Positions 1,830 through 21,278 of a DNA stretch of 21,278 bases are shown here, in pieces. Under the pieces are notes generated by a model that saw nothing but the letters and a program-made list of their open reading frames with translations, was not told the origin of the DNA and searched no databases. Source of the DNA: a virus; the IMG/VR virus record IMGVR_UViG_3300047550_001806, positions 1-21,278 of that record. One strand, 5' to 3'. Position numbers and translations under genes: made by a program. How positions within the stretch are numbered: the first letter of the stretch is position 1; every line of letters begins with the position of its first letter.

Positions 1830-3956
1830 CTATTGAGAGAGTTCGAGCATCAAGGCATCAATGTTTTGCCGGTGCTTCGCACGAGCCTTGCCCGCCGTGC
1901 TGCGAGCGTTCTTCGCCGCCCGTGCTGACTTACAGGTGGGGATACGGCCGTCCTCAATGCCCTCCGAGACGACCACCACGGTATCTACCGGGAGGACATG
2001 CCCCTCGACACCGAGGGGGTATTCACGCTCCACGACCTCTTGCCCCCCCAAGGCTTCGGCCACCACATCGTTGACCTTGCCCGGTCGCCAAGTGGTGAGG
2101 GACACACGCCGGGGGTCGGTCGAAGGGCGAGGGTCGGTCGAAGGGGTCGCACCACTTCCCTGTTCGCCCTCTTCGGGCTCTTGCTTGCCCGACCGCCCGA
2201 GCAGGAAGTTCTGCAAGGCGTAGACCGCCTTCTGCATGGCAGACGGCCCCGTGAGCATCTGTTGCCCACGAACGGGGACTTCACGCCATGCGGCCAAGTC
2301 CACCTCCGCGAACACGTCGCCCACCAAGGCATCCACCTCGTCGGCGGTCGCCGGGCGAACGTCGCCCCCGTGGGCCTCCAAGAGGTCATGCAGAGTGCCG
2401 CCTTCACGGGGCTCCGAGTTCGGCCCCCACACGCAAATCAGGTGGAACTCCGCCGGGGTCGGTGCGACCTTGGCCCACACGAACTCGGTGGTGGCTTCGA
2501 GGCGCCGAAGCGCCATAGCCATGCCGCTCGACCAAACCGAGTCCACAACCCGAATGGAGGCCACCCGGAGGCCAAAATCGTTACGAGAATATATAGAAGA
2601 AGATACCTTATATTCTCGTAACGATTTCTCAGAAGTGAGCCTTCCAAGGTAGTTTTTCAGCCATGCCTTCATGGCGGCTTGGAGGGCGTCCACCATGGTA
2701 GGCCCGCAGGAAGGGCAGCCGAAGTTCCAGCAACCCATCTTGTTGTGGCGCACGACCCCTTGGGTTCGGGGGCCGTTCACCAAGGCCGTCGTGAGCCACG
2801 GGGCACGGTTGCAGGCGAGGGTCCAGGTGGGCCGATAGCTGAACATGGCCTCGGTGGCCACGGCCTTCAGGTGCTCCTCGGCGTCAATGGGGGCCCATTC
2901 CTCAACCACCCCACCGAGCATGGCCTCAACCCCACGGTCCACGGCGGCTTGGTCCACGGCCTCATCCCCCTGCAACCGGCGAAGCTCTTGGACTGCACGG
3001 CCCCGGTCCTCGTTGTCTTCCCGGCGCAGCTCCCTCGGGTCGATGGCGATACCCCCACCGGGGACCGTGGGGGGCTCCACAGGGCCCGGGGGGCGGCCCT
3101 TGGCCGCGACCACGCCCTCGGGCGCGTACAGGCGAACCTTGGCGGCTCCACGGCAGTCTGCGTGGAAGCAGGCCATGGTGGAGGTGTACTTCGTGGACCG
3201 CACCAAGGTCTTGTTGCCGCACTCGGGGCAACGCTGGCGAGCACCCGACGCCGTGTTGATCCCGGCCCACTTCGGGTCCTTGAAGTCAATAGCTGCCCAA
3301 GCCTCCTCGCCCCCGCCTGCACGGCTGCCCTGCATCTCTTGCCACACGGCATGGGGGAGAACGTGCAGCGCCTTGAAGAACTTGTCGAAGGTCACCGCTT
3401 GCAGGGTGTCGGCCCCCGACAAGCACCCCTCCCACCGGTACACGGTCGGCATGATGCCGGGCTTGGCGTAGCGGGAGCCCGGCAGAATGGCGCAGGTCTT
3501 GGGTCCGCGCAGGTCCACGCAGGAGGCGGTCTTGCCGTCTACCTTGCGGAACTCACCCCACATGGGGGCATCTCCACTGGCGTAACCGCCCCGGTCCTCA
3601 CACTTGAAGTAGAGTTGGAGCCCACGCCCGGTCTTGACCGCCGGAATGTAGAGAACGTGCAGGCGCAACTGAAGCCAGCGGAGCACGGCATCCACCTTCG
3701 CCTCGTCGTCTATGTCCACGACGCACAGCCTCCACCCAGGGCCGTCCAAGAGCATGCCGGCGCCGTCGCACCCGTCCTTGGCGAACAGGTTGAACCGGGC
3801 GAGGTCCGTATGGCACGGCTTCGCCCCCCATAGGTGGGCGTATTGCACGCCGGGGCACGGCTTCCGGTCAAGCAGGGGGACTACGGTTGCCCGGCCCTCG
3901 GCCCATTCAAGGGCTTCGTGGTAGCGTGTCGCACCGGTCACAGTTATAGTGGCCAT
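1830..3956 (-). CDS. Primase-polymerase-type replication protein
   Basis: This encodes a 708-residue protein that probably primes phage DNA synthesis. The first 200 residues look like a bifunctional primase-polymerase (PrimPol/AEP) domain. They contain VVDIDDE at 79-85, with catalytic-type acidic residues D81 and D83, GRGLQLYF at 110-117, and a C-V-D-L-R-G...ILPGS stretch at 146-161. A zinc finger follows (C243, C246, C263, H265/C268), then a second cysteine cluster at 409-417 (CWNFGCPSC). No Walker A helicase motif is seen. Residues 432-460 are encoded by the AT-rich palindromic element duplicated near 19.5 kb and look foreign in codon use. The start at 3956 has AGGGAG 6 bases upstream. The upstream in-frame start at 4031 would run through an intrinsic terminator hairpin. 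Primase is the best reading; the function of the C-terminal half is unknown. Confidence 0.75.
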   Translation of the reverse strand: MATITVTGATRYHEALEWAEGRATVVPLLDRKPCPGVQYAHLWGAKPCHTDLARFNLFAKDGCDGAGMLLDGPGWRLCVVDIDDEAKVDAVLRWLQLRLHVLYIPAVKTGRGLQLYFKCEDRGGYASGDAPMWGEFRKVDGKTASCVDLRGPKTCAILPGSRYAKPGIMPTVYRWEGCLSGADTLQAVTFDKFFKALHVLPHAVWQEMQGSRAGGGEEAWAAIDFKDPKWAGINTASGARQRCPECGNKTLVRSTKYTSTMACFHADCRGAAKVRLYAPEGVVAAKGRPPGPVEPPTVPGGGIAIDPRELRREDNEDRGRAVQELRRLQGDEAVDQAAVDRGVEAMLGGVVEEWAPIDAEEHLKAVATEAMFSYRPTWTLACNRAPWLTTALVNGPRTQGVVRHNKMGCWNFGCPSCGPTMVDALQAAMKAWLKNYLGRLTSEKSLREYKVSSSIYSRNDFGLRVASIRVVDSVWSSGMAMALRRLEATTEFVWAKVAPTPAEFHLICVWGPNSEPREGGTLHDLLEAHGGDVRPATADEVDALVGDVFAEVDLAAWREVPVRGQQMLTGPSAMQKAVYALQNFLLGRSGKQEPEEGEQGSGATPSTDPRPSTDPRRVSLTTWRPGKVNDVVAEALGGQEVVEREYPLGVEGHVLPVDTVVVVSEGIEDGRIPTCKSARAAKNARSTAGKARAKHRQNIDALMLELSQ
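2579..2662 (+). repeat. AT-rich palindromic element, copy 1 (inside the primase gene)
   Basis: This 84-base stretch matches 19526-19609 in the same orientation with three mismatches. It has a perfect inverted repeat, here extended to 19 bp (arms 2575-2593 and 2609-2627) around the 15-base loop TAGAAGAAGATACCT. A downstream CTCAGAAGTGAG mini-hairpin and a T5 run follow. Its composition is strongly AT-rich against the GC-rich flanks. All three plus-strand frames contain stops. The minus-strand frame used by the primase is open and adds 28 codons. I infer an inserted, possibly mobile, palindromic repeat. I could not identify a clear target-site duplication. Confidence 0.85.
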
Positions 3957-4087: not shown

Positions 4088-4126
4088 CCTATCGAAGACC
4101 CGGACTTCGATAGGTTCGCCTTATGA
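4088..4126. repeat. Palindromic repeat R1
   Basis: The arms CCTATCGAAG (4088-4097) and CTTCGATAGG (4105-4114) are perfectly complementary and separated by 7 bases. They are followed by TTCGCCTTATGA. The same right arm plus this 12-base tail recurs at 4187-4208 and 4544-4565. The symmetry suggests a dimeric protein-binding site or a hairpin. It lies just upstream of the possible primase promoter. Confidence 0.7.
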
Positions 4127-4142
4127 AGCCCTCTCCCGGCCC

Positions 4143-4225
4143 CCCCGGCCCCGAGACTGACAACCTATGCCTATCGAGGCTCAGGTCTTCGATAGGTTCG
4201 CCTTATGATGCCCTTCCACCCTCCG
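4143..4225. repeat. 83-base direct repeat, copy A (contains palindrome R2)
   Basis: This is identical base for base to 4500-4582, offset by 357 bases. It contains the palindrome CCTATCGAGG (4170-4179)/CTTCGATAGG (4187-4196) with one mismatch. Its right end matches the last codons and stop of the minus-strand regulator gene, which lies in copy B. Copy A therefore carries an orphan copy of that gene's 3' end, as if produced by a local duplication. Confidence 0.85.
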
Positions 4226-4244
4226 GGCGGGGGGGGCTGTATGG

Positions 4245-4469
4245 GGTGTAACCGCGGGAACTCCGTGCCCGTCGTCGTTCTGGGCCGGTTACGGGGGTTA
4301 CACACTTCTCGCGCTTAGGGCGGGGGTGTCCATATATACTCCGCCGTCCGCCCTGCCTCTCCACCTCGAATATAAATACCCCCCCGTAAGTCTTGAAGAA
4401 GTAGTAACCACTGTACCCGGCCGTAAGAGCTGCTCCAACCTACATTATCCAGGTAACGGCAGGGTTACC
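4245..4469. promoter_or_regulatory. Cluster of GGTTAC/GTAACC motifs
   Basis: The hexamer GGTTAC or its complement occurs at 4248-4253 (as TGTAACC), 4287-4292, 4296-4301, 4404-4409 (GTAACC), and as the inverted pair GGTAAC/GTTACC at 4452-4457 and 4464-4469. Spacing is irregular. They lie between the two 83-base repeats. They could be iterons for a replication initiator or operator half-sites. There is no direct evidence for either. Confidence 0.4.
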
Positions 4470-4499
4470 CCCCCCGCAACCAACAGCCCGAACAACGAG

Positions 4500-4582
4500 C
4501 CCCGGCCCCGAGACTGACAACCTATGCCTATCGAGGCTCAGGTCTTCGATAGGTTCGCCTTATGATGCCCTTCCACCCTCCG
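4500..4582. repeat. 83-base direct repeat, copy B (contains palindrome R3)
   Basis: This is identical to 4143-4225. The palindrome arms are at 4527-4536 and 4544-4553. The copy begins downstream of the minus-strand regulator gene and extends about 22 bases into its 3' end, including the TAA stop. The hairpin just after the stop could end or stabilise that transcript, but no T-run follows. Confidence 0.85.
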
Positions 4583-7469: not shown

Positions 7470-9176
7470 ATGCTGACTCCACAACATGTCGCCGAAATTG
7501 TCGCCGGCCATGACCGCTACTTCAGCGACCGACGCGAGGAGCTGCGTGAGGCCCGCCGGCTCTACATGACCGACTTCTGGTCCCGTGAGCAAGGGGAGAG
7601 CCAAGCCGGTGGGCTTCGCACTGAGGTGCCCAAGGCATATGCCGTCGTCGAGAGCTACCTCGGCAGTCTCTATGCCAAGAACCCCGCCGTGTTTGTGCAG
7701 CCTGATGTGCGCGCACGGGGCAATGCAGAAGTGGCCGAGGCCACCGCCAACCTGTACTTGCTGAGCGTGCGCGAGCAGCTTGAGGACGCAACCCGCCTCG
7801 CATTGATCTACCCGTGCTCGTTCATCAAGCTGAGTCCGGTCCCGAGCGTGGACCCACTCAAGCGCGTGGCAGCGGCAGCGCTGCCCCCGTGGGAGGTCAT
7901 TGTTGACGCCACGGCCTGCGCTTGGGAGCAACAGCGCTACGTAGGGCATGTCTACTTGATGCCCCTTCCAGAGGCGACCGAGCGCTACGGCAAGGCCGAG
8001 ACGGACTTCACCCCGCGCAGTTACTCCAAGTGGCTCGACTCTACATGGTCGGCGAGCACCCGCGGGTGGGGCTCGGGGCCCACGGGGGGCAACACCAACA
8101 CTGTGCCGGGAGTCGAGAAGTTCATCAGGGTGGTTGAAATCTACGACCTCCTCGCCGATAAGCTGCTTGTGTGGTCCGAGGACTACTCGGGCGGGCAGCA
8201 GTTCCTCTTCACGGGCGTCAAGGTTCAGGTCGGCGCCCTCCAGCCCACCCCCGAAGAGAAGGAAGAGCCCGAGCTTCAACACGAAACCAGTGGCATCCCC
8301 TACAAGAGCGCATCGGGCAGGCCCGTCGTGCCTATCCTCCCGCTCTACTTCTCTCGTGACCCCGACACCCCGCTCCGTGGATACAGCCTCATTAGCCGGA
8401 GCCGGGATCAGTTCAGAGAACTCAACCTCATGCGCTCCTACCAAGCGCAGGGCGTCCGCCGTATGGCTCGGCAGTGGATGGTCCGGGCGGGCTTCTTGAG
8501 CGAGGACGCTGCGGCCAAAATCACGCAGGGCATCGACGGCGAGATGATTGAGGTCGATGTTGCACCGGGCACCCCGCTCGATGGCAACATCACCCCCGTC
8601 CCGCAGGCGCCCATTCCCGGTGACATTGCAGCCTATGCTCTGACCGTGGACAACGACCTCAAGGACGCGGGCCTGCTTGCCCCCTTCACCCGTGGAGAAG
8701 TCACCAAGAGCACCGCCACCGAGCAACAGCTCCTTGCGGCCTACACGTCGAGCGAAATCGGGCGCATGGCCCGTATCCGAGACGGTGTCATCACCGGGGT
8801 CGCCAGCACCTACAACATCATGTTGAGCGTGGTCTTGGGTGACGAGGCCGAGCCCTTGGCCCTGCCAAACCCGGTCGGCCCGACATTCCTCTCGGCGGAG
8901 GACCTGACCGGGGACTTCTCGTATTGGGCAGTGGATGCGGGCACCACGCCGATGAGCGACCTTGCCCGGCAAGCGTCGCTTGAGAGGCTCGCCCCCCTGC
9001 TGCTTAGTCTCGGGGCTCCCAAGGAGGCCGTCTTGGCCGAGCTTGTGAGGGCCTACCAGTTGCCCGAAGCCTTCGCGAAGGCGGTCGAGCAAGCACAAGC
9101 ACCCGCGAGCGGGCAAGAGCAACCCCCCTCTTCCTCCCCCCTGCCTTCAAGTATGCTTCCCATCACCGGAGTTTGA
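7470..9176 (+). CDS. Portal protein
   Basis: This encodes a 568-residue portal, the dodecameric ring at the capsid vertex through which DNA is packaged and ejected. Evidence is the position directly after the large terminase and before the scaffold, the length, and the sequence style. A helical N-terminus (ARRLYMTDFW) is followed by KAYAVVESYLGSLYAKNP, a typical portal membrane-like helix region. A beta-rich wing with PPWEVIVDAT comes next, then a long helical stem around residues 305-345 (SRSRDQFRELNLMRSYQAQG) and an acidic C-terminus. I start it at the ATG at 7470 because the longer frame to 7206 runs through terL. AGGGAG lies 12 bases upstream, slightly far. The Q/P-rich C-terminal tail is low complexity. 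The stop overlaps a TTG, but the next gene starts at 9179. Confidence 0.88.
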   Translation: MLTPQHVAEIVAGHDRYFSDRREELREARRLYMTDFWSREQGESQAGGLRTEVPKAYAVVESYLGSLYAKNPAVFVQPDVRARGNAEVAEATANLYLLSVREQLEDATRLALIYPCSFIKLSPVPSVDPLKRVAAAALPPWEVIVDATACAWEQQRYVGHVYLMPLPEATERYGKAETDFTPRSYSKWLDSTWSASTRGWGSGPTGGNTNTVPGVEKFIRVVEIYDLLADKLLVWSEDYSGGQQFLFTGVKVQVGALQPTPEEKEEPELQHETSGIPYKSASGRPVVPILPLYFSRDPDTPLRGYSLISRSRDQFRELNLMRSYQAQGVRRMARQWMVRAGFLSEDAAAKITQGIDGEMIEVDVAPGTPLDGNITPVPQAPIPGDIAAYALTVDNDLKDAGLLAPFTRGEVTKSTATEQQLLAAYTSSEIGRMARIRDGVITGVASTYNIMLSVVLGDEAEPLALPNPVGPTFLSAEDLTGDFSYWAVDAGTTPMSDLARQASLERLAPLLLSLGAPKEAVLAELVRAYQLPEAFAKAVEQAQAPASGQEQPPSSSPLPSSMLPITGV

Positions 9177-10226: not shown

Positions 10227-11039
10227 ATGGCCGAGCCCAATAGCACCGCTCCCTCCCCGTCCAATTCTGCACCGTCGGTCCCGTCCGTCGCACAGGCGGC
10301 CCTCGACGAGTACAACAGCCGCAACGCGGCAGCCGCCCCCGGCGCCCATGCAGAAGGCGGAGAGGAGGGGGCAGAAGCCCACGCAGGCGAGGGCGAGGGT
10401 GAGCCCCGGGTGCGCAAGCTCTCCTGGAACGACGCGCTCAAGCAGGTCCCCCCGGATGTCCGCGAGCTGATGAAGTCGATGCAGCGGGACTACACCCAGA
10501 AGACGCAGGAGCTGAGCACGCAGCGCAAGGAGTTTCTCCGCGAGCGGGAAGCCCTGCTCAAGGGTCAGCAAGCTCTGCCCAAGGAGCAGCCCGCCCTGCC
10601 CGAGTACGACCCCTTCAACGAGGCGTCTATCAACGCTCGCATTGAAGCCGAGGTCAACAAGCGGCTCAACATGGTCCTTGAGCCCATGAAGCGTGAATAC
10701 GAGGTTATGGCGGCCGAGGAGAGCTACCAGAGCTTCCTGTCGAAGAACCCCGACTTCAAGACCGATAAGGCACTCCGGGCCGAGGTGCAGGCCCTGCTCG
10801 AAGCATCCCCCTCACTCGACCTTGAGACGGCCTACTACGCCGCCAAGGGCAAGCGCGGCCCTCTCGTGCAGCAGGCCGAGAGGGCCGCTGCACAGGCTCG
10901 ACGCACTGCCGACCGTGAGGCCGCTACCCGTGGGACCGCCCTCCCTCGCAAGGGGTCCGGGCTGCCCGTGGCAGGTGACGTCAAGCGCATGTCGAACGCA
11001 GACATTCTCGCCATGGCCCGGGCTCTACAGCGCCGTTGA
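10227..11039 (+). CDS. Scaffolding protein
   Basis: This encodes a 270-residue scaffold that guides capsid assembly and leaves before maturation. It has the expected make-up: a disordered Ala/Ser/Pro and Glu-rich N-terminus (about residues 1-60), then a conserved-looking WNDALKQVPPDVRELMKSM segment at 67-85. A long charged coiled coil follows (about 86-170), then a LETAYYAAKGK motif near residues 199-209, and a basic C-terminal helix that would bind the coat protein. It lies directly before the major capsid gene, as usual. The ATG at 10227 has CCGAGG about 8 bases upstream. It could also be called a capsid assembly protein; no protease is seen in this window. Confidence 0.8.
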   Translation: MAEPNSTAPSPSNSAPSVPSVAQAALDEYNSRNAAAAPGAHAEGGEEGAEAHAGEGEGEPRVRKLSWNDALKQVPPDVRELMKSMQRDYTQKTQELSTQRKEFLREREALLKGQQALPKEQPALPEYDPFNEASINARIEAEVNKRLNMVLEPMKREYEVMAAEESYQSFLSKNPDFKTDKALRAEVQALLEASPSLDLETAYYAAKGKRGPLVQQAERAAAQARRTADREAATRGTALPRKGSGLPVAGDVKRMSNADILAMARALQRR

Positions 11040-11043
11040 GAAC

Positions 11044-11061
11044 CCCCGTGCCATGGCACGG
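11044..11061. promoter_or_regulatory. 18-base perfect palindrome after the scaffold gene
   Basis: CCCGTGCCATGGCACGGG reads the same on both strands and can fold as a 7-bp hairpin with a CATG loop. It sits 5 bases after the scaffold stop and just upstream of the -35 box of the capsid promoter. It has no T-run, so an operator or RNA 3'-end hairpin is more likely than an intrinsic terminator. Confidence 0.6.
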
Positions 11062-11062
11062 G

Positions 11063-11218: not shown

Positions 11219-12229
11219 ATGCGTTCCATTCTCTCGTCCACGCTGCCCCTCCTGCGTGACAAGCTCATCGACAACTCCTTCGTGAGCCATCCCCTGTTCC
11301 GGGCCATTGAAGCCTCGGGCAACCTCGTGAAGATTTCGGGCGGCTCTCGTATCGAGCAGCCGGTCATCTTCGGCGAGCACTCCAGCCTCAGCGTGCTGAG
11401 CAACGGCTTCGAGCCGGTGTCCATGGCCGTGACCGACCCCTTCTACACGGCCAACTTCGAGTGGGCCAACTTCACTCAGCCAATCGTGTTGAGCGCAGTG
11501 GAGAAGGCCGCCAATAAGGGCGACGACGCCATCGTCAACATCCTTGAGGGCAAGATGAAGAACGTCCTCCTCGGGATGAAGAAGGCGGTGAACCAGCAGG
11601 TCATGGTTGGCACCGGGGCGGTGTCCACCCTCCAGACCCTCAACGGCAACGGCACCAGCACCTCTGCCCCCGTCACCACGGGTTGGTTCGAGGCCCTGGC
11701 GAGCACCGCGCAGACCAACACGGTCGGCGGCCTCTCCAAGACCACATACCGCAGCAAGAACTGGTTCAACCAGTGGTATGACAGCGCCGGCAGCTTCGCT
11801 CTCAGCCACCTCGATGAGCTGTTCATCAACTGCCAGACCTACCACCCCGCCGGGAAGACCCCCGACATCATCCTGATGTCCCCGAAGTGCTTCGGTGCCT
11901 TCCAGGCGCTTCAGCAGTCCTCGGTGCAGTACGTGAGTGCTTCCGACCGTGAGTCCCTGGACCGGGACATGGTGGCCATGTGGCGCGGCGCGAAGATTTA
12001 CGTGGACCCCAACCTCGGCTTCACCTCGGCTGGTGGGGCGCCCGTGTCGGCCTACGTGCTGAGCAGCGACCTGTTCCAGCTCTACACCGACACCGACGGT
12101 TGGTTCCACGTGAGCGACCTGATGCCCGTCCCCGGCACCGCGACCGAGGCGGCCATGGTGTTCTGCCGCATGCAGCTCGTGACCGGTCACCTCGCGAGCC
12201 ACGGCATCCTGACCGACGCCGAGGCTTGA
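11219..12229 (+). CDS. Major capsid protein
   Basis: This encodes a 336-residue coat protein. Its position after the scaffold, its own promoter and a good ribosome binding site (AGAGG 7 bases upstream) fit the most abundant virion protein. Recognisable features of the HK97-fold phage coat group are an N-terminal helix (LPLLRDKLIDNSFVSHPLFRA), a GSRIEQPVIFG-type E-loop region around residues 42-52, and a long spine-like helix rich in Ala/Lys (AVEKAANKGDDAIVNILEGK) at 92-111. A P-domain-like segment with DIILMSPKCFGAFQAL at 217-232 and a closing beta-rich A-domain complete it. It has no N-terminal delta domain because the scaffold is separate. The fold assignment is from visible motif style. 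Confidence 0.88.
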   Translation: MRSILSSTLPLLRDKLIDNSFVSHPLFRAIEASGNLVKISGGSRIEQPVIFGEHSSLSVLSNGFEPVSMAVTDPFYTANFEWANFTQPIVLSAVEKAANKGDDAIVNILEGKMKNVLLGMKKAVNQQVMVGTGAVSTLQTLNGNGTSTSAPVTTGWFEALASTAQTNTVGGLSKTTYRSKNWFNQWYDSAGSFALSHLDELFINCQTYHPAGKTPDIILMSPKCFGAFQALQQSSVQYVSASDRESLDRDMVAMWRGAKIYVDPNLGFTSAGGAPVSAYVLSSDLFQLYTDTDGWFHVSDLMPVPGTATEAAMVFCRMQLVTGHLASHGILTDAEA

Positions 12230-12916: not shown

Positions 12917-14290
12917 ATGAACCTCGGCAACCTCATTGACTTCGTCGGCAACCTCCTCGACTACGACCCGACAAACGACACCTATCGGGAGCAGCTTGTC
13001 TCCCTGCTGAACGACGCGCAGACCCGGTGCTTGACCGACCGCCCGTGGGACTTCGCAACCCGCGACCGCAAGCTCAACGTCTACACCGACGCCTCCGTGA
13101 GTGTGGGTGTGACCAATGGCAGTGGGTTGGTCACCGGTGGGCCCTTCCCCGTGAGCACCACCAATGTGCGGCCCGGTTCCTCCTATGAGTTGGGCATCTT
13201 GCGCGTGACAGACAGCGCAAGTGTGACCGCGGACTATCGCGTCATGTACGTGTCCACGGGCAACCAGCTCTTCTTGGACCGGGACTTCACGGGTGTAACG
13301 GGGGCCTATACGGCCACCTTGTTCAGGCGTGAGGTCTACCTACCCTCGGACTGCGCCCAAGTGCAGAACGTGGCTGACCCGGCCGTTGGTGTGCCTGCCA
13401 AGCTGCTGGCCCTAAGCAAGTGGGAACGCGAAGACGCGAACCTCGACCCCGCGCAGCTCGGCACCCTTGAAGCCTACTTGCCCTCCGAAGGGCTCAGGGT
13501 CCAAGCCCCGACCACTCCCCGCGGTGTGCAAGTCGTGGCTGCCGCTCCGGGGCAAGGCATCCGCACTATCAAGCTCTACATGGTCAATGTGCTTGGTCCC
13601 GCGAGCCCTCCCTTCCCCGTCTATCCCCGGGATGTGAGCGACGGCTTCGAGAGCGCGTTCAGCAAGCCCGAGACCTACACGCTCTCGGACACCGAGACTC
13701 TGCGCATGACCCCGGAGACAATCCCTAACAAGACTGGTTTTTATCGGCGCTACTACTTCACCTGCCCCGAGGCGAACATCCTCGCGCCCGTTCGGGTGAG
13801 GGACGCCTTAATCAACAACCTCACGGTGACGGGCGTAGATACCGTCCCGCCTCCGGGGGGTATCACCCTTGCACCGAACCTTGCGCTGAGCCACTTGAGC
13901 GGGCAGAGCTTCCAGGCGACCAGCATCCGCTATCAGTTCGACCAGAGCGCGGTGTATCAGTCCGTGCAGCTCTATCCCCATCCGTCGGAGGACCAGGAGC
14001 TTGACTGCCGCATGGTCATTTCGCCGTCACGGATGTTGGAGGACCAAGACGCCCCTCTCATTCCTGCGGCGTATGCACAGCTCATTGCATATGCCGCGCT
14101 TGAGTCCCTGACCCTCAAGGTGGACAACGCTGCATTGTCGCAGGTCTACGCCCGCAAGAAGGACGTGCTCTACAAGGGCATGGAGCAGACCTACTTGAAG
14201 GTCGTCCCTCGGCGCCTTGTGAAGGGCGAGCCTACTTCGGGCTTCCGCTTCGGCTCCAACCCCTTCGGCCCCTTGCGGCTCATCCCCTAA
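12917..14290 (+). CDS. Head-to-tail adaptor protein
   Basis: This encodes a 457-residue protein placed between the capsid and nozzle genes, where T7-type phages have the gatekeeper (gp11). The N-terminus (LLDYDPTNDTYREQLVSLLNDAQTRCL) and the C-terminus (AYAQLIAYAALESLTLKVDN followed by a long KKDVLYKGMEQTYLK helix) are the helical bundle typical of podophage adaptors. A beta-rich insertion between about residues 60 and 370 makes it much longer than gp11 (about 200 residues). This is a form seen in many uncultured podoviruses. It would form a ring on the portal and carry the nozzle. GAGG lies about 12 bases before the ATG, a weak ribosome binding site. Confidence 0.7.
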   Translation: MNLGNLIDFVGNLLDYDPTNDTYREQLVSLLNDAQTRCLTDRPWDFATRDRKLNVYTDASVSVGVTNGSGLVTGGPFPVSTTNVRPGSSYELGILRVTDSASVTADYRVMYVSTGNQLFLDRDFTGVTGAYTATLFRREVYLPSDCAQVQNVADPAVGVPAKLLALSKWEREDANLDPAQLGTLEAYLPSEGLRVQAPTTPRGVQVVAAAPGQGIRTIKLYMVNVLGPASPPFPVYPRDVSDGFESAFSKPETYTLSDTETLRMTPETIPNKTGFYRRYYFTCPEANILAPVRVRDALINNLTVTGVDTVPPPGGITLAPNLALSHLSGQSFQATSIRYQFDQSAVYQSVQLYPHPSEDQELDCRMVISPSRMLEDQDAPLIPAAYAQLIAYAALESLTLKVDNAALSQVYARKKDVLYKGMEQTYLKVVPRRLVKGEPTSGFRFGSNPFGPLRLIP

Positions 14291-14312: not shown

Positions 14313-16499
14313 ATGCAGGGCACCGTCTTCCAAACACCCCTTGCCGGGGGCCTTGAAACCCGCCAACCGCAGAACCCGCAGAATGCGGGCCGGGTGGAAA
14401 ACTGGAGCACTGACAAGAACACCGGGGGCTGGACTTCCATGCTCGGCTACGAGCCGTTCAGGCCGGGCCAAACTACTTGGGACCCCTTCGGGACATGCGG
14501 GCCGGTCTACTCGCTGCATGTCGCTCAGCACCTTGCAGGCGGCGCCCGTCAGCATGTTCTCTTCGAGGAGGGGGGCAACCTCCACCTGCTCTATGACTCG
14601 ACCGGAACACCCGTTCTGCGCACCCTCGCCACGGGGCGCCATGTCCCGACCGCCATGGAGCCAGGCTCTTGGTACACCGACACCGGCTATGGCACGGTCG
14701 TGACCAACGGGGTGGACCGACCCGTGCTCGTCAGGCCGTGGCCGCTCTCGGGCCTCTCTGATAGCGCGAACACCATTTCGCAGTGCATCCGCCCCTTCGG
14801 CTTCGACGGGCTCCCGGCACCCCCGGACCCGCACAACGTCAAGCCCGTTCCCCCGCCCCCTTACCCGCCGAACATCCCCATCCCCGGAGGCGGTGCTACG
14901 ACGTTGTGGTGCCCCGCTGACGGGAACGCGGTCCCCGACGGGGGTCGGTGGGGCCTGGGCTTCGCGAACAACGTGGGCGGGAACGACGGAGACAAGTCGG
15001 CCATCTTCGGTTGGGCCGTGAGTTTTATTAGCGACACCGGGAGCGAAGGGCCAACATCCACCCTTGCAAGTGTGCGGTGGGCCCTTCAAGCCGACGCCGA
15101 GGGGTTCCGCCATGCCTGCTGCGTGGACCTCCCGCTCGGCCCCAAGGGCACGGTCGCACGCAAGGTCTACCGCACGACCAACTACTCGGACGACTACAGC
15201 TTCCCGGGAGACACGACCCTCTACTTCATTGATGTGGTGCGCAACAACGTAGAGACCACGTTCTTCGACGCGGTGGCCACGGCGAACCTGGGGCAGCCGA
15301 GCCCTGAGATTGCGACCGGTCCCCTACCAGCTCCAAGAGCCCGGTTTTCTGCCCTGTACAACGGCTGCTTGTTCCTCGACGGCGGAGTCGACGATAGCCG
15401 CACCCTCTACTACAGCGCCGCCGGCCTTATCGAGCAGTTTGCCGCCGACGCATACATTGAGCTGGCTTCCACCGGGGGCGGAGTCACCGCGCTCTATGCG
15501 AGCTACACGGCCCTGCTTGTCTTCCGTGAGAACGGCATTGATGTGGTGCAAGGGGACTACGCTTCGGGCTTCACGGTCACCACCGTGAGCAACAACGTGA
15601 CCTGCCGGGCCCCACACAGCATCAAGACGGTCCCGGGCTTGGGCGTCGTGTTCCTCGCGAATGACGGGGTGTACGCGGTCACGGGCGGCCTCGTGGGCGG
15701 TGCCAACACCGAGGTCTTGAACCTGACGGCGAACCTCGACGCGGTTCTCACAAGGGTGACGGCCGACTGCCATGCCAAGGCAGTCGGTGTCTATTCGGAG
15801 AAGCTCCGGGAGTACCAGCTCCACGTCCCGGTGGACGGCAATGACCGGCCCAACATGGGGCTGGTCCTACACCTTGATCGCCTGTTGAACCCGGGCGGGG
15901 CCGCTCCTCTAAGCCCGTGGTCGACCCGTGTTGGTTTCCCCGTGGGGGGTGCAAGCACCTTCTTCGACGGCACGGTGCTCTTCGGCCACAACACCGGCAG
16001 TCAGGACGCAACCACGAACTCGCAGCGTGGGTTGTTCGTCATGTCGGGCAAGAGGGCCGCGGGCAAGGTGCCGTCCAACAACACGCTTGTCTATGCAGCC
16101 CTACCTGCAAGCGTCTACCGGAGCGCTTGGTGCAGCTTCGGTGACCCCCAAGTGCAGAAACAAGTGACCTATGTGACCTTGTGGTTGTCTACCACCGGGA
16201 ACATCCCCGTGACCGTGCGGCACTACAAGGACTTCAGCCTGACGCCCGTGGAAGAGCGCACCTACTATGCGCAGCCTCCTGATGCCCCGCGCCTGCCCGT
16301 GCTCGACAAGGCGGTCATTGGGAGCACGGGCACCACCTACTCGGACGAGCGGTTGGTCCCGCTGCGTGTCAGCGTGGCTCACATGAGCGCCGCTTGGTTC
16401 TGTTTCGAGCTTGAGACAACCGGTGTCCTCACCCTCGTGGGCTATGAATATGAGTTCGCGACCAAGGGCACCAAGGTCGTTGCGGGGGTGCGCGCGTGA
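14313..16499 (+). CDS. Tail nozzle protein (T7 gp12-type)
   Basis: This encodes a 728-residue protein, the large tubular tail component that forms the DNA exit channel. Length, position after the adaptor and the beta-propeller style support this. Repeated blades of the type G-x-V-Y-S-L, HLLYDSTG, LFLDGGVDDSRTLYYSA and VVFLANDGVYAVTGG appear along the chain. A proline-rich linker (VPPPPYPPNIPIP, about residues 179-191) separates the N-terminal docking part from the propeller. A marked run SALYNGCLFLDGGVDDSRT near residues 347-365 is typical of gp12 relatives. GGAG lies about 8 bases before the ATG at 14313. The stop overlaps the next GTG (GTGA), implying coupled translation. Confidence 0.75.
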   Translation: MQGTVFQTPLAGGLETRQPQNPQNAGRVENWSTDKNTGGWTSMLGYEPFRPGQTTWDPFGTCGPVYSLHVAQHLAGGARQHVLFEEGGNLHLLYDSTGTPVLRTLATGRHVPTAMEPGSWYTDTGYGTVVTNGVDRPVLVRPWPLSGLSDSANTISQCIRPFGFDGLPAPPDPHNVKPVPPPPYPPNIPIPGGGATTLWCPADGNAVPDGGRWGLGFANNVGGNDGDKSAIFGWAVSFISDTGSEGPTSTLASVRWALQADAEGFRHACCVDLPLGPKGTVARKVYRTTNYSDDYSFPGDTTLYFIDVVRNNVETTFFDAVATANLGQPSPEIATGPLPAPRARFSALYNGCLFLDGGVDDSRTLYYSAAGLIEQFAADAYIELASTGGGVTALYASYTALLVFRENGIDVVQGDYASGFTVTTVSNNVTCRAPHSIKTVPGLGVVFLANDGVYAVTGGLVGGANTEVLNLTANLDAVLTRVTADCHAKAVGVYSEKLREYQLHVPVDGNDRPNMGLVLHLDRLLNPGGAAPLSPWSTRVGFPVGGASTFFDGTVLFGHNTGSQDATTNSQRGLFVMSGKRAAGKVPSNNTLVYAALPASVYRSAWCSFGDPQVQKQVTYVTLWLSTTGNIPVTVRHYKDFSLTPVEERTYYAQPPDAPRLPVLDKAVIGSTGTTYSDERLVPLRVSVAHMSAAWFCFELETTGVLTLVGYEYEFATKGTKVVAGVRA

Positions 16500-18850: not shown

Positions 18851-19543
18851 ATGGACCCCATTACACTGGCCCTCCTCGGAGGGGGACTCGCCAAGGCCGG
18901 GGCGGGCATTGCCTCGGGCATCGGGACAGCGCGTGCCGCCAAGAAGCAGTTCTTGACCCCCGCGGAGGAGCAAGAGCTTGCAGAGCTTGAGGCCCGCAAG
19001 CGTGCGGGCACCCTTGGCCTCACCGAGGGTGACAGAGGCCGGCTTGAGCAGCAGTTCTTGGCGGAACAGGCCGGGGCCCAACGGGAGCTTGAGGCCACGG
19101 CCCTGCAACAGGCCGCTGCCCGTGGCTTGCAGAGCGGTGTCTCCGGAAGGGAACTGTTCCTTCAGGAGCAGGCACAAGCCTCGGCTGAGCGGGGCATGCG
19201 CCAACAGCAGAACCTCGCGCTGCTTGAGGTCGACCGCTCGCAGCGCGAAGCAGAGCTGGCCCGTATCGACGCCATGCGGGCCCAACAGAAGGGTGCCGAG
19301 GCCCAGCGTGCTGCGGGCATTGCCCAAGCCGTATCCCTCGGGCTCGCCGGAGCTGGCGATGTAGCCCTGCAAGCCGCCTCCATGAGGCAGCAGGCCAAGC
19401 TGAACGAGCTTGAAGCAGCCGCCCGTGCAGAGACGGACCAGTCCCTCCTCAACAGGCTCTTGGCCTACCCGGGTGGGGTCACGGGTGGTGGCATCGTGCC
19501 CCCCGTGACCCGCCCCCCTACCGTCCGTTACGAGAATATATAG
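18851..19543 (+). CDS. Coiled-coil internal virion-type protein; stop from palindromic element
   Basis: This encodes a 230-residue, Ala/Gln/Glu-rich helical protein. A glycine-rich hydrophobic N-terminal segment (LALLGGGLAKAGAGIASGIG, residues 5-24) resembles the membrane-active start of phage ejection proteins. A long predicted coiled coil (LEARKRAGTL... to about residue 150) and a second helical region follow. The position after the tail genes is where T7-like phages code internal virion proteins. GGAGG lies 7 bases before the ATG. The last codons YENI and the TAG stop (19541-19543) come from the AT-rich palindromic element. Without it the frame would have continued, so the ancestral C-terminus may be longer. 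Confidence 0.6.
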   Translation: MDPITLALLGGGLAKAGAGIASGIGTARAAKKQFLTPAEEQELAELEARKRAGTLGLTEGDRGRLEQQFLAEQAGAQRELEATALQQAAARGLQSGVSGRELFLQEQAQASAERGMRQQQNLALLEVDRSQREAELARIDAMRAQQKGAEAQRAAGIAQAVSLGLAGAGDVALQAASMRQQAKLNELEAAARAETDQSLLNRLLAYPGGVTGGGIVPPVTRPPTVRYENI

Positions 19544-19609
19544 AAGAAGATACCTTATATTCTCGTAACGATTTCTCAGAAGTGAGCCTTCTAAGATAGT
19601 TTTTGAGCC
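19526..19609 (+). repeat. AT-rich palindromic element, copy 2 (3' end of a virion gene)
   Basis: This is the second copy of the element at 2579-2662, same orientation, three mismatches. The perfect stem is 15 bp here (arms 19526-19540 and 19556-19570) with the same 15-base loop. The loop's first codon is the TAG stop of the upstream gene. Downstream, TCTCAGAAG (19574-19582) pairs with CTTCTAAGA (19588-19596) with one mismatch and is followed by TAG and T5 (19600-19604), which resembles an intrinsic terminator. In copy 1 the two changed bases in that right arm weaken the stem. Confidence 0.85.
19574..19604 (+). terminator. Possible terminator within palindromic element copy 2
   Basis: The 9-bp stem with one mismatch, a 5-base loop (TGAGC), and five T residues three bases after the stem fit a weak rho-independent terminator. 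It lies between the coiled-coil gene and the partial gene at 19650, so it could limit read-through within the late operon. Confidence 0.4.
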
Positions 19610-19649
19610 CTCCCCGACTCTTGGCCCCACCATGCGAGAGGTCCACCAC

Positions 19650-21278
19650 ATGCCTCCGAAGACTTCCACCCCCCTCCCCGCCCGGACCCCGACCTATCTC
19701 CAGCAGTACAGCCGCGTGCTCAATGCGGCCTATCGATACGAGCGTATCCAACGGGAGGTCCAGGACGAGCAGGCCCGGGTGCAGTACCTTGACTCGCTCA
19801 TTGGGCAAGAGCGGCAGACCCTCGCCGGGTTGCAGCAGGTTTTCCGGGCCGAGCCCTTGTCTCTTGAGGTGGCGCAAGGGCTCCTGCGGGACATGTCCGC
19901 GGCGGACACAGCCCGTGCCCTGGCAGAGGCCCGTGGTGCTGCGGCCTACAAGGCCGGGACGACCGTATCGAAGGGGGAGGCAAGCGAGCTTCGCAGCGCC
20001 TACGCACAGAGCGCGGAGCTTGGTTACTCGACCACCGAGGCACTCCTGGCGGGGGCCTCGCCCGAGAAGCAAGCCGCCATTCTGAAGGCCCTGCCTTCCT
20101 CCGTACCCGCGCAAGACCGAGCGGCCCTTAGCAAGTACGCAGCATCCGTGGCCTCCAAGAAGCCCTTGGGCACGGGAGGAGGTGGCGCTGCCGCTGCCGA
20201 GCAGGCCAAGGCCGTAAGCAGCGCCCTTGAAGCCGCCTACTTCGCGGGGCCGACCGGCATCCGTGGTGGATACCAGGGCCTCGCCGTCGTCGAGCGCCGC
20301 AAGCTGACGGCCGCCCAGCTTGAAGAAGGTGGAGACAAGAAGGCGGCCGAAGCGCTCCGCAAGAGCGGCTATGCCACGCAGCAAGACGCGCTGGATGCGG
20401 CTCTTGAGAGCGTGCGGGGCAGCGGCGACCCTCAAGCTATTCCTGACCAGTACGCTCGGGACATCTACCTTGAGGCCCGCAATACGCAGGCATATACCAA
20501 CGCTGAACGGGCAGACTTCGAGCAGGAGGTCTTGGACTCCCGGAAGCGCATCGCCAAGCTTGAGGGGGAGCGCGCGTCCATTGCCGGGGCGTACAAGGAC
20601 CCGGCACAGGAAGCCATCAAGCGTGAGCTGACGGCCCGGGGCTACAAGTTCGCGGGCGTGGGCTCGGTCGATGAGTGGCAGAACCGCTACTTGCCCTATC
20701 AGAACACCCCCTACTACGATGTGCTCCTCAAGGCCGACCGGCTCGTGGACTCGGCCAAGCAAAACGCGAAGCCCCTCTCGCCGACCTCCAAGGCGCAGAA
20801 CATGGTTGCTACGCTGACCATGCAGTACGAGCGCACGGGCACCAAGTTCGACTTGGACACCCTGCGCAAGCAGCTCTCCAAGGCGCAGGACCTTAGCCCG
20901 GCCGACATCGACGACGCCCTGAGCTTCATTGTGGCCTACCGCGAACTCGGCGGAGATGCGCAGGACCCGAAGCAGTTGGAGTTCCTCAAGCAACAAGAAG
21001 AGTCCGAGAAGAGAAACGCCGAGGCATACCGTGCTGAACGGGAGCAGAAGGCGCTTCTCAAGCAGCGCGAGATTGATGCCGCACGGGAGGACGCCCGCCT
21101 CATCGAGGAGAAGCTCAAGAGGACCCCCGCAGAGGTCCGGGCCGAGCACGCCCGGGACGAGGCCCCCGGCAAGTACTACGCCCGTCTCCGCGCCCTCGGC
21201 GTTGACGCCGAAGACGCTCGCTCCCTCGCCGTGAAGCAGGTCCCCCCGCCCCCCGCCCCCCGGGCGGCTCCTGTGGCG
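19650..21278 (+). CDS. Large coiled-coil, probable internal virion protein (partial)
   Basis: The open frame continues past the right edge; 543 codons are visible without a stop. The ATG at 19650 has AGAGG about 8 bases upstream. An ATG 18 bases earlier lacks a good site. The sequence is helical and charged throughout, with long Ala/Glu/Arg/Lys runs. It has a Gly/Ala-rich hinge around residues 176-184, a possible coiled coil near residues 455-500 (EESEKRNAEAYRAERE), and a proline-rich stretch at the cut end (VPPPPAPRAAP). There is no lysozyme or transglycosylase motif in the visible part. By position it probably forms part of the ejectosome with the preceding coiled-coil protein. The downstream part may carry a catalytic domain that cannot be seen here. 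Confidence 0.65.
   Translation, partial: MPPKTSTPLPARTPTYLQQYSRVLNAAYRYERIQREVQDEQARVQYLDSLIGQERQTLAGLQQVFRAEPLSLEVAQGLLRDMSAADTARALAEARGAAAYKAGTTVSKGEASELRSAYAQSAELGYSTTEALLAGASPEKQAAILKALPSSVPAQDRAALSKYAASVASKKPLGTGGGGAAAAEQAKAVSSALEAAYFAGPTGIRGGYQGLAVVERRKLTAAQLEEGGDKKAAEALRKSGYATQQDALDAALESVRGSGDPQAIPDQYARDIYLEARNTQAYTNAERADFEQEVLDSRKRIAKLEGERASIAGAYKDPAQEAIKRELTARGYKFAGVGSVDEWQNRYLPYQNTPYYDVLLKADRLVDSAKQNAKPLSPTSKAQNMVATLTMQYERTGTKFDLDTLRKQLSKAQDLSPADIDDALSFIVAYRELGGDAQDPKQLEFLKQQEESEKRNAEAYRAEREQKALLKQREIDAAREDARLIEEKLKRTPAEVRAEHARDEAPGKYYARLRALGVDAEDARSLAVKQVPPPPAPRAAPVA

Follow-up and report, generated by a model that had tools for sequence, protein, structure and literature searches.

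How a palindromic, AT-rich segment comes to be read in frame within a replication gene of a GC-rich phage, and whether it lies there as an inserted element, a signal or an original part of the protein, is the question raised by a gene for a bifunctional DNA primase/polymerase (prim-pol; 1830..3956, minus strand). The window, which is the whole stretch of DNA analyzed here, is an entire IMG/VR virus record of 21,278 bp. Its genes include those for a terminase, a portal and an SU10-like capsid protein, as in a GC-rich tailed phage, and in our reading the phage is podovirus-like. A small ORF at 654-1172, with SAHMTGEAADLKVDG and HVHVGIK, is by its look presumably an M15-type peptidase endolysin. 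The prim-pol protein has 708 amino acids, counted from the ATG at 3956, and an N-terminal PF09250 domain.

The segment in question is an 84-bp AT-rich unit that is present twice in the window, at 2579..2662 (copy 1) and 19526..19609 (copy 2); the two copies differ by 3 mismatches in 84 bp (96% identity), and their exact ends are uncertain by a few bases. Each unit consists of a perfect 15-bp inverted repeat, a 15-nt loop and a 39-bp tail, with the inverted repeat confined to unit positions 1-45. Four sites in the window match the repeat half, CGTTACGAGAATATA, with no further site at three or fewer mismatches (expected 0.06), and AGAAGAAGA is confined to the two element loops. In copy 1 the inverted repeat is 4 nt longer, as flanking AAAT extends the stem, and the long hairpin (2575..2627, plus strand) has a stem of 19 around the loop TAGAAGAAGATACCT. 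The corresponding hairpin of copy 2 (19526..19570, plus strand) has a stem of 15 and a loop of 15. Read directly from the sequence, the tail of copy 1 (2628..2662, plus strand) contains the small hairpins CTCAGAAGTGAG and CCTTCCAAGG, followed by TAGTTTTT. Relative to shuffled sequences, the single strand folds with a z of about -6.5 in either orientation.

Both copies recur exactly in a near-identical, complete sibling genome in IMG/VR, a contig of 28,487 bp whose terminal repeat measures 241 nt, and copy 1 is also found in a third contig, RFQY01000186.1, which was binned in a Rhodobacteraceae MAG. The element is therefore no accident of assembly. An 18-base pattern from the tail matches the sibling alone in IMG/VR. 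The 15-base half site by itself also matches 23 other IMG/VR contigs, each time as a single, unpaired site, and these matches were taken as chance.

Copy 1 is antisense to the prim-pol gene. In the protein, the CxxC motif is followed by a conserved helix, and the element comes directly after this helix. Reading of the frames confirmed the proposal of an earlier note that an 84-base element is carried in frame by a 708-codon gene, with the minus frame open and the plus frames stopped. The frame used by the gene is the only open minus frame, its codon boundaries are shifted by 2 nt relative to the element ends, and stops occur in all three plus frames. The encoded residues, previously given as 432-460, are about 433-460 when counted from the ATG at 3956. 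The codons had also been described as AT-rich and unlike their neighbours, and this proved correct. The 28 codons have a GC content of 0.36, compared with a minimum of 0.51 elsewhere, and a GC3 of 0.32. Their codon score is -0.69; the 4888 other windows of 28 codons average 0.27 (sd 0.13) and none falls below -0.23, which puts the segment about 7 sd from the mean. Because GC content and codon score both fall outside all phage windows, the segment is foreign to the coding style of the phage.

Upstream of prim-pol are three near-identical 27-bp palindromes (4088-4114, 4170-4196 and 4527-4553; CCTATCGA..TCGATAGG). Direct repeats of 95 bp contain two of the three. These palindromes are likely origin iterons or operators, and their presence upstream of prim-pol makes it less likely that the 84-bp element is itself a replication origin. 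A contig of the same phage (L116) joins 4237 to 4500 without the 263 nt that separate the 95-bp repeats, either by deletion through repeat recombination or by assembly collapse.

At the second site, the history of the element can be read from filled and empty junctions. Copy 2 interrupts the 3′ end of a late gene (18851..19543, plus strand), giving it its last codons and stop (..PTVR|YENI*), and the 106-nt gap to the next late gene (19544..19649) is made up of the rest of copy 2 and about 40 nt. In the ten relatives with a reliable reading of this junction, other rows having been left out as misread frames, the genes abut with a gap of -4 to +8 nt, whereas the gap in the window is 106 nt. In L040 and L035, which share about 68-71% DNA identity along the region, and in L100, stop and start overlap. 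By this comparison of sequences, copy 2 is demonstrably a clear insertion. Inspection by eye of the sequence on both sides of each copy showed no target-site duplication. Elsewhere, in L127, an AT-rich palindrome with a stem of 19 and one mismatch (15098-15146) ends an ORF (..NKYTLIY*) like copy 2 of the window.

Palindromes also occur in the prim-pol genes of related phages. L100, a 28 kb phage, is the sole prim-pol relative found by primase similarity, with palindromes not used. Its prim-pol homologue contains the palindrome CATTACACCTCGGGTCTC, with a loop of 12, and this palindrome is present a second time at a late-gene junction. Among 48 loci, the two late genes are tightly spaced at this junction in 41 (<=18 nt); in the other seven (L100, L090, L034, L035, L037, L082 and L039) it spans 66-95 nt, and all of these hold a palindrome whose sequence differs among lineages. 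L090 is 93% identical to L100 over 7.7 kb, and its junction arms differ by clustered changes that are mirrored in both arms. Two more phages, L161 and L165/L167, were matched with a pattern from the L100 and L090 core and, having been found via the palindrome, are unusable for the frequency of palindromes in such prim-pol genes. The L161 and L165 proteins are 34% identical to the prim-pol of L100 and 26% identical to that of the window, and the palindrome is at the L100 position in both. L161 and L165 also possess two tandem units before the capsid gene, the first starting at the stop codon of the preceding gene. At the same junction, the window has a perfect 18-bp palindrome, CCCGTGCCATGGCACGGG (11045-11062), just past the stop of gene 10227-11039.

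All copies, including those of the window, share one order on the late-gene strand, the long hairpin preceding the small one, with the prim-pol copy antisense. When seven distinct copies were aligned without the window, the long hairpin was paired in 100% of cells. Five pairs had changed on both sides, two G.U forms occurred on the late-mRNA strand, and the covariation of the arms exceeded that of all 500 shuffles and all slid versions. Some copies within a single genome have the loop inverted relative to one another. The late copy (11936-12004) and the prim-pol copy (19572-19645) of L176 have exactly inverted hairpin loops. In L100, a third strong palindrome at 19838-19887 (stem 16, loop 18; DEPEGVDTVAPAATPSGSV) lies in frame in another gene. 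The relative G003 (L122) contains eight TTTACANTGTAAA sites (8131-8293, 13904-13945, 881 and 3447), comprising four iterons, a pair that forms the late-junction hairpin and two single sites.

The unit of the window follows the L100-type plan, with a long hairpin, a GAAGAAG-type loop, a small hairpin, the same strand and a presence in both prim-pol and the late operon. The prim-pol loops of the window (GGTATCTTCTTCTA) and of L161 (GGTCTCTTCTTCTA) are identical at 13 of 14 positions, on the same strand and in the same reading frame (VSSS), with a p of 0.0085 as a single comparison and 0.05 as the best of the family. A covariance model built without the window found copy 1 as its best hit in the window, on the right strand, but at 13.3 bits and an E of 0.21. 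The window unit and the L100 family agree in plan, orientation, kind of site and loop, and kinship is likely, although in sequence it is weak and no more than suggestive.

The best explanation of these observations, at about even odds, is that this phage lineage has in the 84-bp unit an insertion element of its own, one that is short and non-autonomous and forms a hairpin. Near-identical 84-bp copies are present at two unrelated sites, and the variation of sites between phages and the empty sites of many relatives favour such an element. Palindrome and tail would have been copied as a single block into the prim-pol gene and the 3′ end of the late gene, where copy 2 would now serve as the gene terminus. 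The prim-pol copy would have survived because it adds a whole number of codons and is free of stops in the frame used, so that it would be translated as 28 residues. In the relatives, units in prim-pol and at or near late stops occupy several different sites, and these differences indicate repeated acquisition or movement. We infer that the unit is mobile, that it is akin to the units of the relatives and that the enzyme tolerates the peptide, much as the palindromic elements of Rickettsia (RPEs) are tolerated in genes (PMC2229807). Against an insertion element stand the number of copies, two per genome, and an inverted repeat that occupies one half of the unit. No transposase or other mobilizing enzyme was identified in the window.

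A less probable but serious alternative is that the hairpin is not a selfish insert and acts in cis as a functional signal, in the form of RNA or single-stranded DNA. It might process or protect late mRNA at stops, bind a protein as an operator hairpin, or provide a start or loading site for prim-pol, and each phage would retain a single copy in prim-pol and at least one among its late genes. Such a role is favoured by the recurrence in prim-pol, since L100, L161 and L165 hold the unit at the same place in genes just 34% identical, and by the shared strand, every copy in four phages being oriented alike on the genome, against the reading direction of prim-pol and with that of the late operon. 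It is also favoured by the fully paired hairpin, whose five double changes and two G.U changes preserve pairing on the late-mRNA strand, and by late copies at or near stop codons. Moreover, a palindrome is present in each of the four prim-pol genes of this type known so far, and all copies are on one strand, which hints at function over chance insertion; however, this count is biased, as two of the four genes, those of L161 and L165, were retrieved by palindrome search. The covariation of the arms is not decisive alone because hairpin-templated correction, which needs no function, can maintain complementary arms (PMC6649704). In addition, the sites vary by phage, with two positions in prim-pol and three late junctions, and most relatives in the clade lack a hairpin at these junctions. 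Several specific candidates were rejected. Kissing loops between prim-pol and late mRNA would fit the window, but the L100 and L161 loops are not complementary, and by eye the motifs of integron attC sites and hammerhead-like cores do not fit.

It is unlikely that the unit stems from the bacterial host, as a miniature element that a host transposase inserted into the phage in the manner of a MITE. Its length of 84 bp, its inverted repeat and its AT-richness within a GC-rich phage do agree with general MITE traits (PMC2229807). However, the MAG with the third contig has no further copy, and none was present in 395 genomes of the same family, which may not be that of the host. Across 84,980 GTDB species genomes, the palindrome pattern matched only the phage's own contig and one sequence in Clostridia (L117), a different palindrome whose match was taken as chance. 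Only the phage contig was matched when 398 Pseudomonadota genomes were searched with the covariance model and the profile A3, a null that shows little, and comparison with Rfam gave no meaningful match for the element. Terminal inverted repeats are also lacking, as is a visible target-site duplication.

Whether the 28 residues are extra to the enzyme was addressed with three prim-pol homologues, 20-25% identical to the window protein. All three lack this peptide and possess a palindrome-encoded peptide of their own about 30 residues downstream of the window element position. None carries the same peptide without the DNA element, as an original part of the protein might have led one to expect. 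In pairwise deletion scans, removing 28 residues at exactly 431-432 gave the best gain in score, +2 to +4. In contrast, an HMM built from the three homologues slightly favours keeping the segment, the domain scoring 32.6 bits with it and 29.8 without it, a difference of about 3 bits. AlphaFold models from two and four sequences had a pLDDT of 36-37, too low to place the segment. Weak HMM matches in Rhodobacterales genomes were set aside, the one inspected (L156) not being this prim-pol, and what looked like a homologue in L090 comes from a shadow reading of that phage's own palindrome. Copy 1 is foreign by composition, but the alignments, at 20-25% identity, point both ways on whether its residues are extra. 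From the earlier proposal of an inserted foreign element, a foreign, palindromic, multi-copy, in-frame unit and the insertion of copy 2 are retained, and an added surface loop at residues 432-460 is no more than a possibility, as scan and HMM disagree and the models are too poor. That the segment is an original part of prim-pol and copy 2 a later duplication of this piece of the gene nevertheless seems improbable, the slightly better HMM score and a spacing of conserved blocks that is similar overall when each protein's own palindrome is counted being set against GC and codon usage unlike the rest of the phage, an inverted repeat that is perfect over 19 bp within the coding region and no clearly related peptide at that place in the homologues.

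Palindromes that encode protein segments have been described in Rickettsia, Wolbachia and some mitochondria (PMC2229807, PMC10969869, PMC6649704), and none was found for a phage in the literature searched. It is conceivable, with somewhat less than an even chance, that a small, uncultivated podovirus lineage has protein-coding palindromic units of its own, with private arms that have changed in pairs, a common type of loop and tail, one copy in prim-pol, the others at late stops, and all on one strand. If so, they would be the first selfish element of phages to resemble RPEs, or else a hairpin signal of a new kind that connects a primase gene with the late operon. Because the unit is located in both a replication gene and the late operon, a selfish nature can be tested against a signal. 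In a virus of 28 kb whose relatives have their units at different sites, insertion, movement and upkeep would also become visible on a short time scale.

Several known systems resemble the unit in part. The origin of phage lambda, within gene O, is a replication signal inside a replication gene; there too, inverted-repeat DNA in the gene of a replication protein is read in frame. Unlike the lambda origin, the phage unit is a single long hairpin, and the likely iterons lie elsewhere, upstream at 4088-4553. In nematomorph mitochondria, perfect inverted repeats within genes keep their arms complementary while changing, but these arms reach 142 bp and are scattered over mitochondrial genes, while the phages have small units with a shared loop and tail that are copied between sites (PMC6649704). 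Bacterial MITEs and small mobile repeats such as ERIC, Correia/NEMIS, RUP and YPAL are less than 200 bp, non-coding, structured in their transcripts and sometimes fused in frame (PMC2229807). The phage unit is AT-rich, as are most MITEs, and copy 2 has the empty sites of ten relatives as its counterpart. It differs from MITEs in that it has no terminal inverted repeats at both ends and no target-site duplication visible by eye; no matching insertion sequence was identified in the window.

A likeness also exists to the protein-coding palindromes of Rickettsia (RPEs) and Wolbachia, which are likewise short palindromic DNA with a strong stem-loop, lie in frame in genes and at gene ends, and encode a peptide of tens of residues (PMC2229807, PMC10969869). 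The resemblance to RPEs noted earlier holds for the long, stable stem-loop (stem 19, loop 15) and for placement both in frame, as in prim-pol copy 1, and outside genes, as with copy 2 at a gene end. It does not extend to membership. RPEs measure 105-146 bp with terminal inverted repeats and number dozens per Rickettsia genome, whereas the phage unit measures 84 bp, is present twice in a complete genome, combines an inverted repeat in one half with a tail and differs in sequence in each related phage. The unit is therefore best read as RPE-like in anatomy and outside the RPE family.
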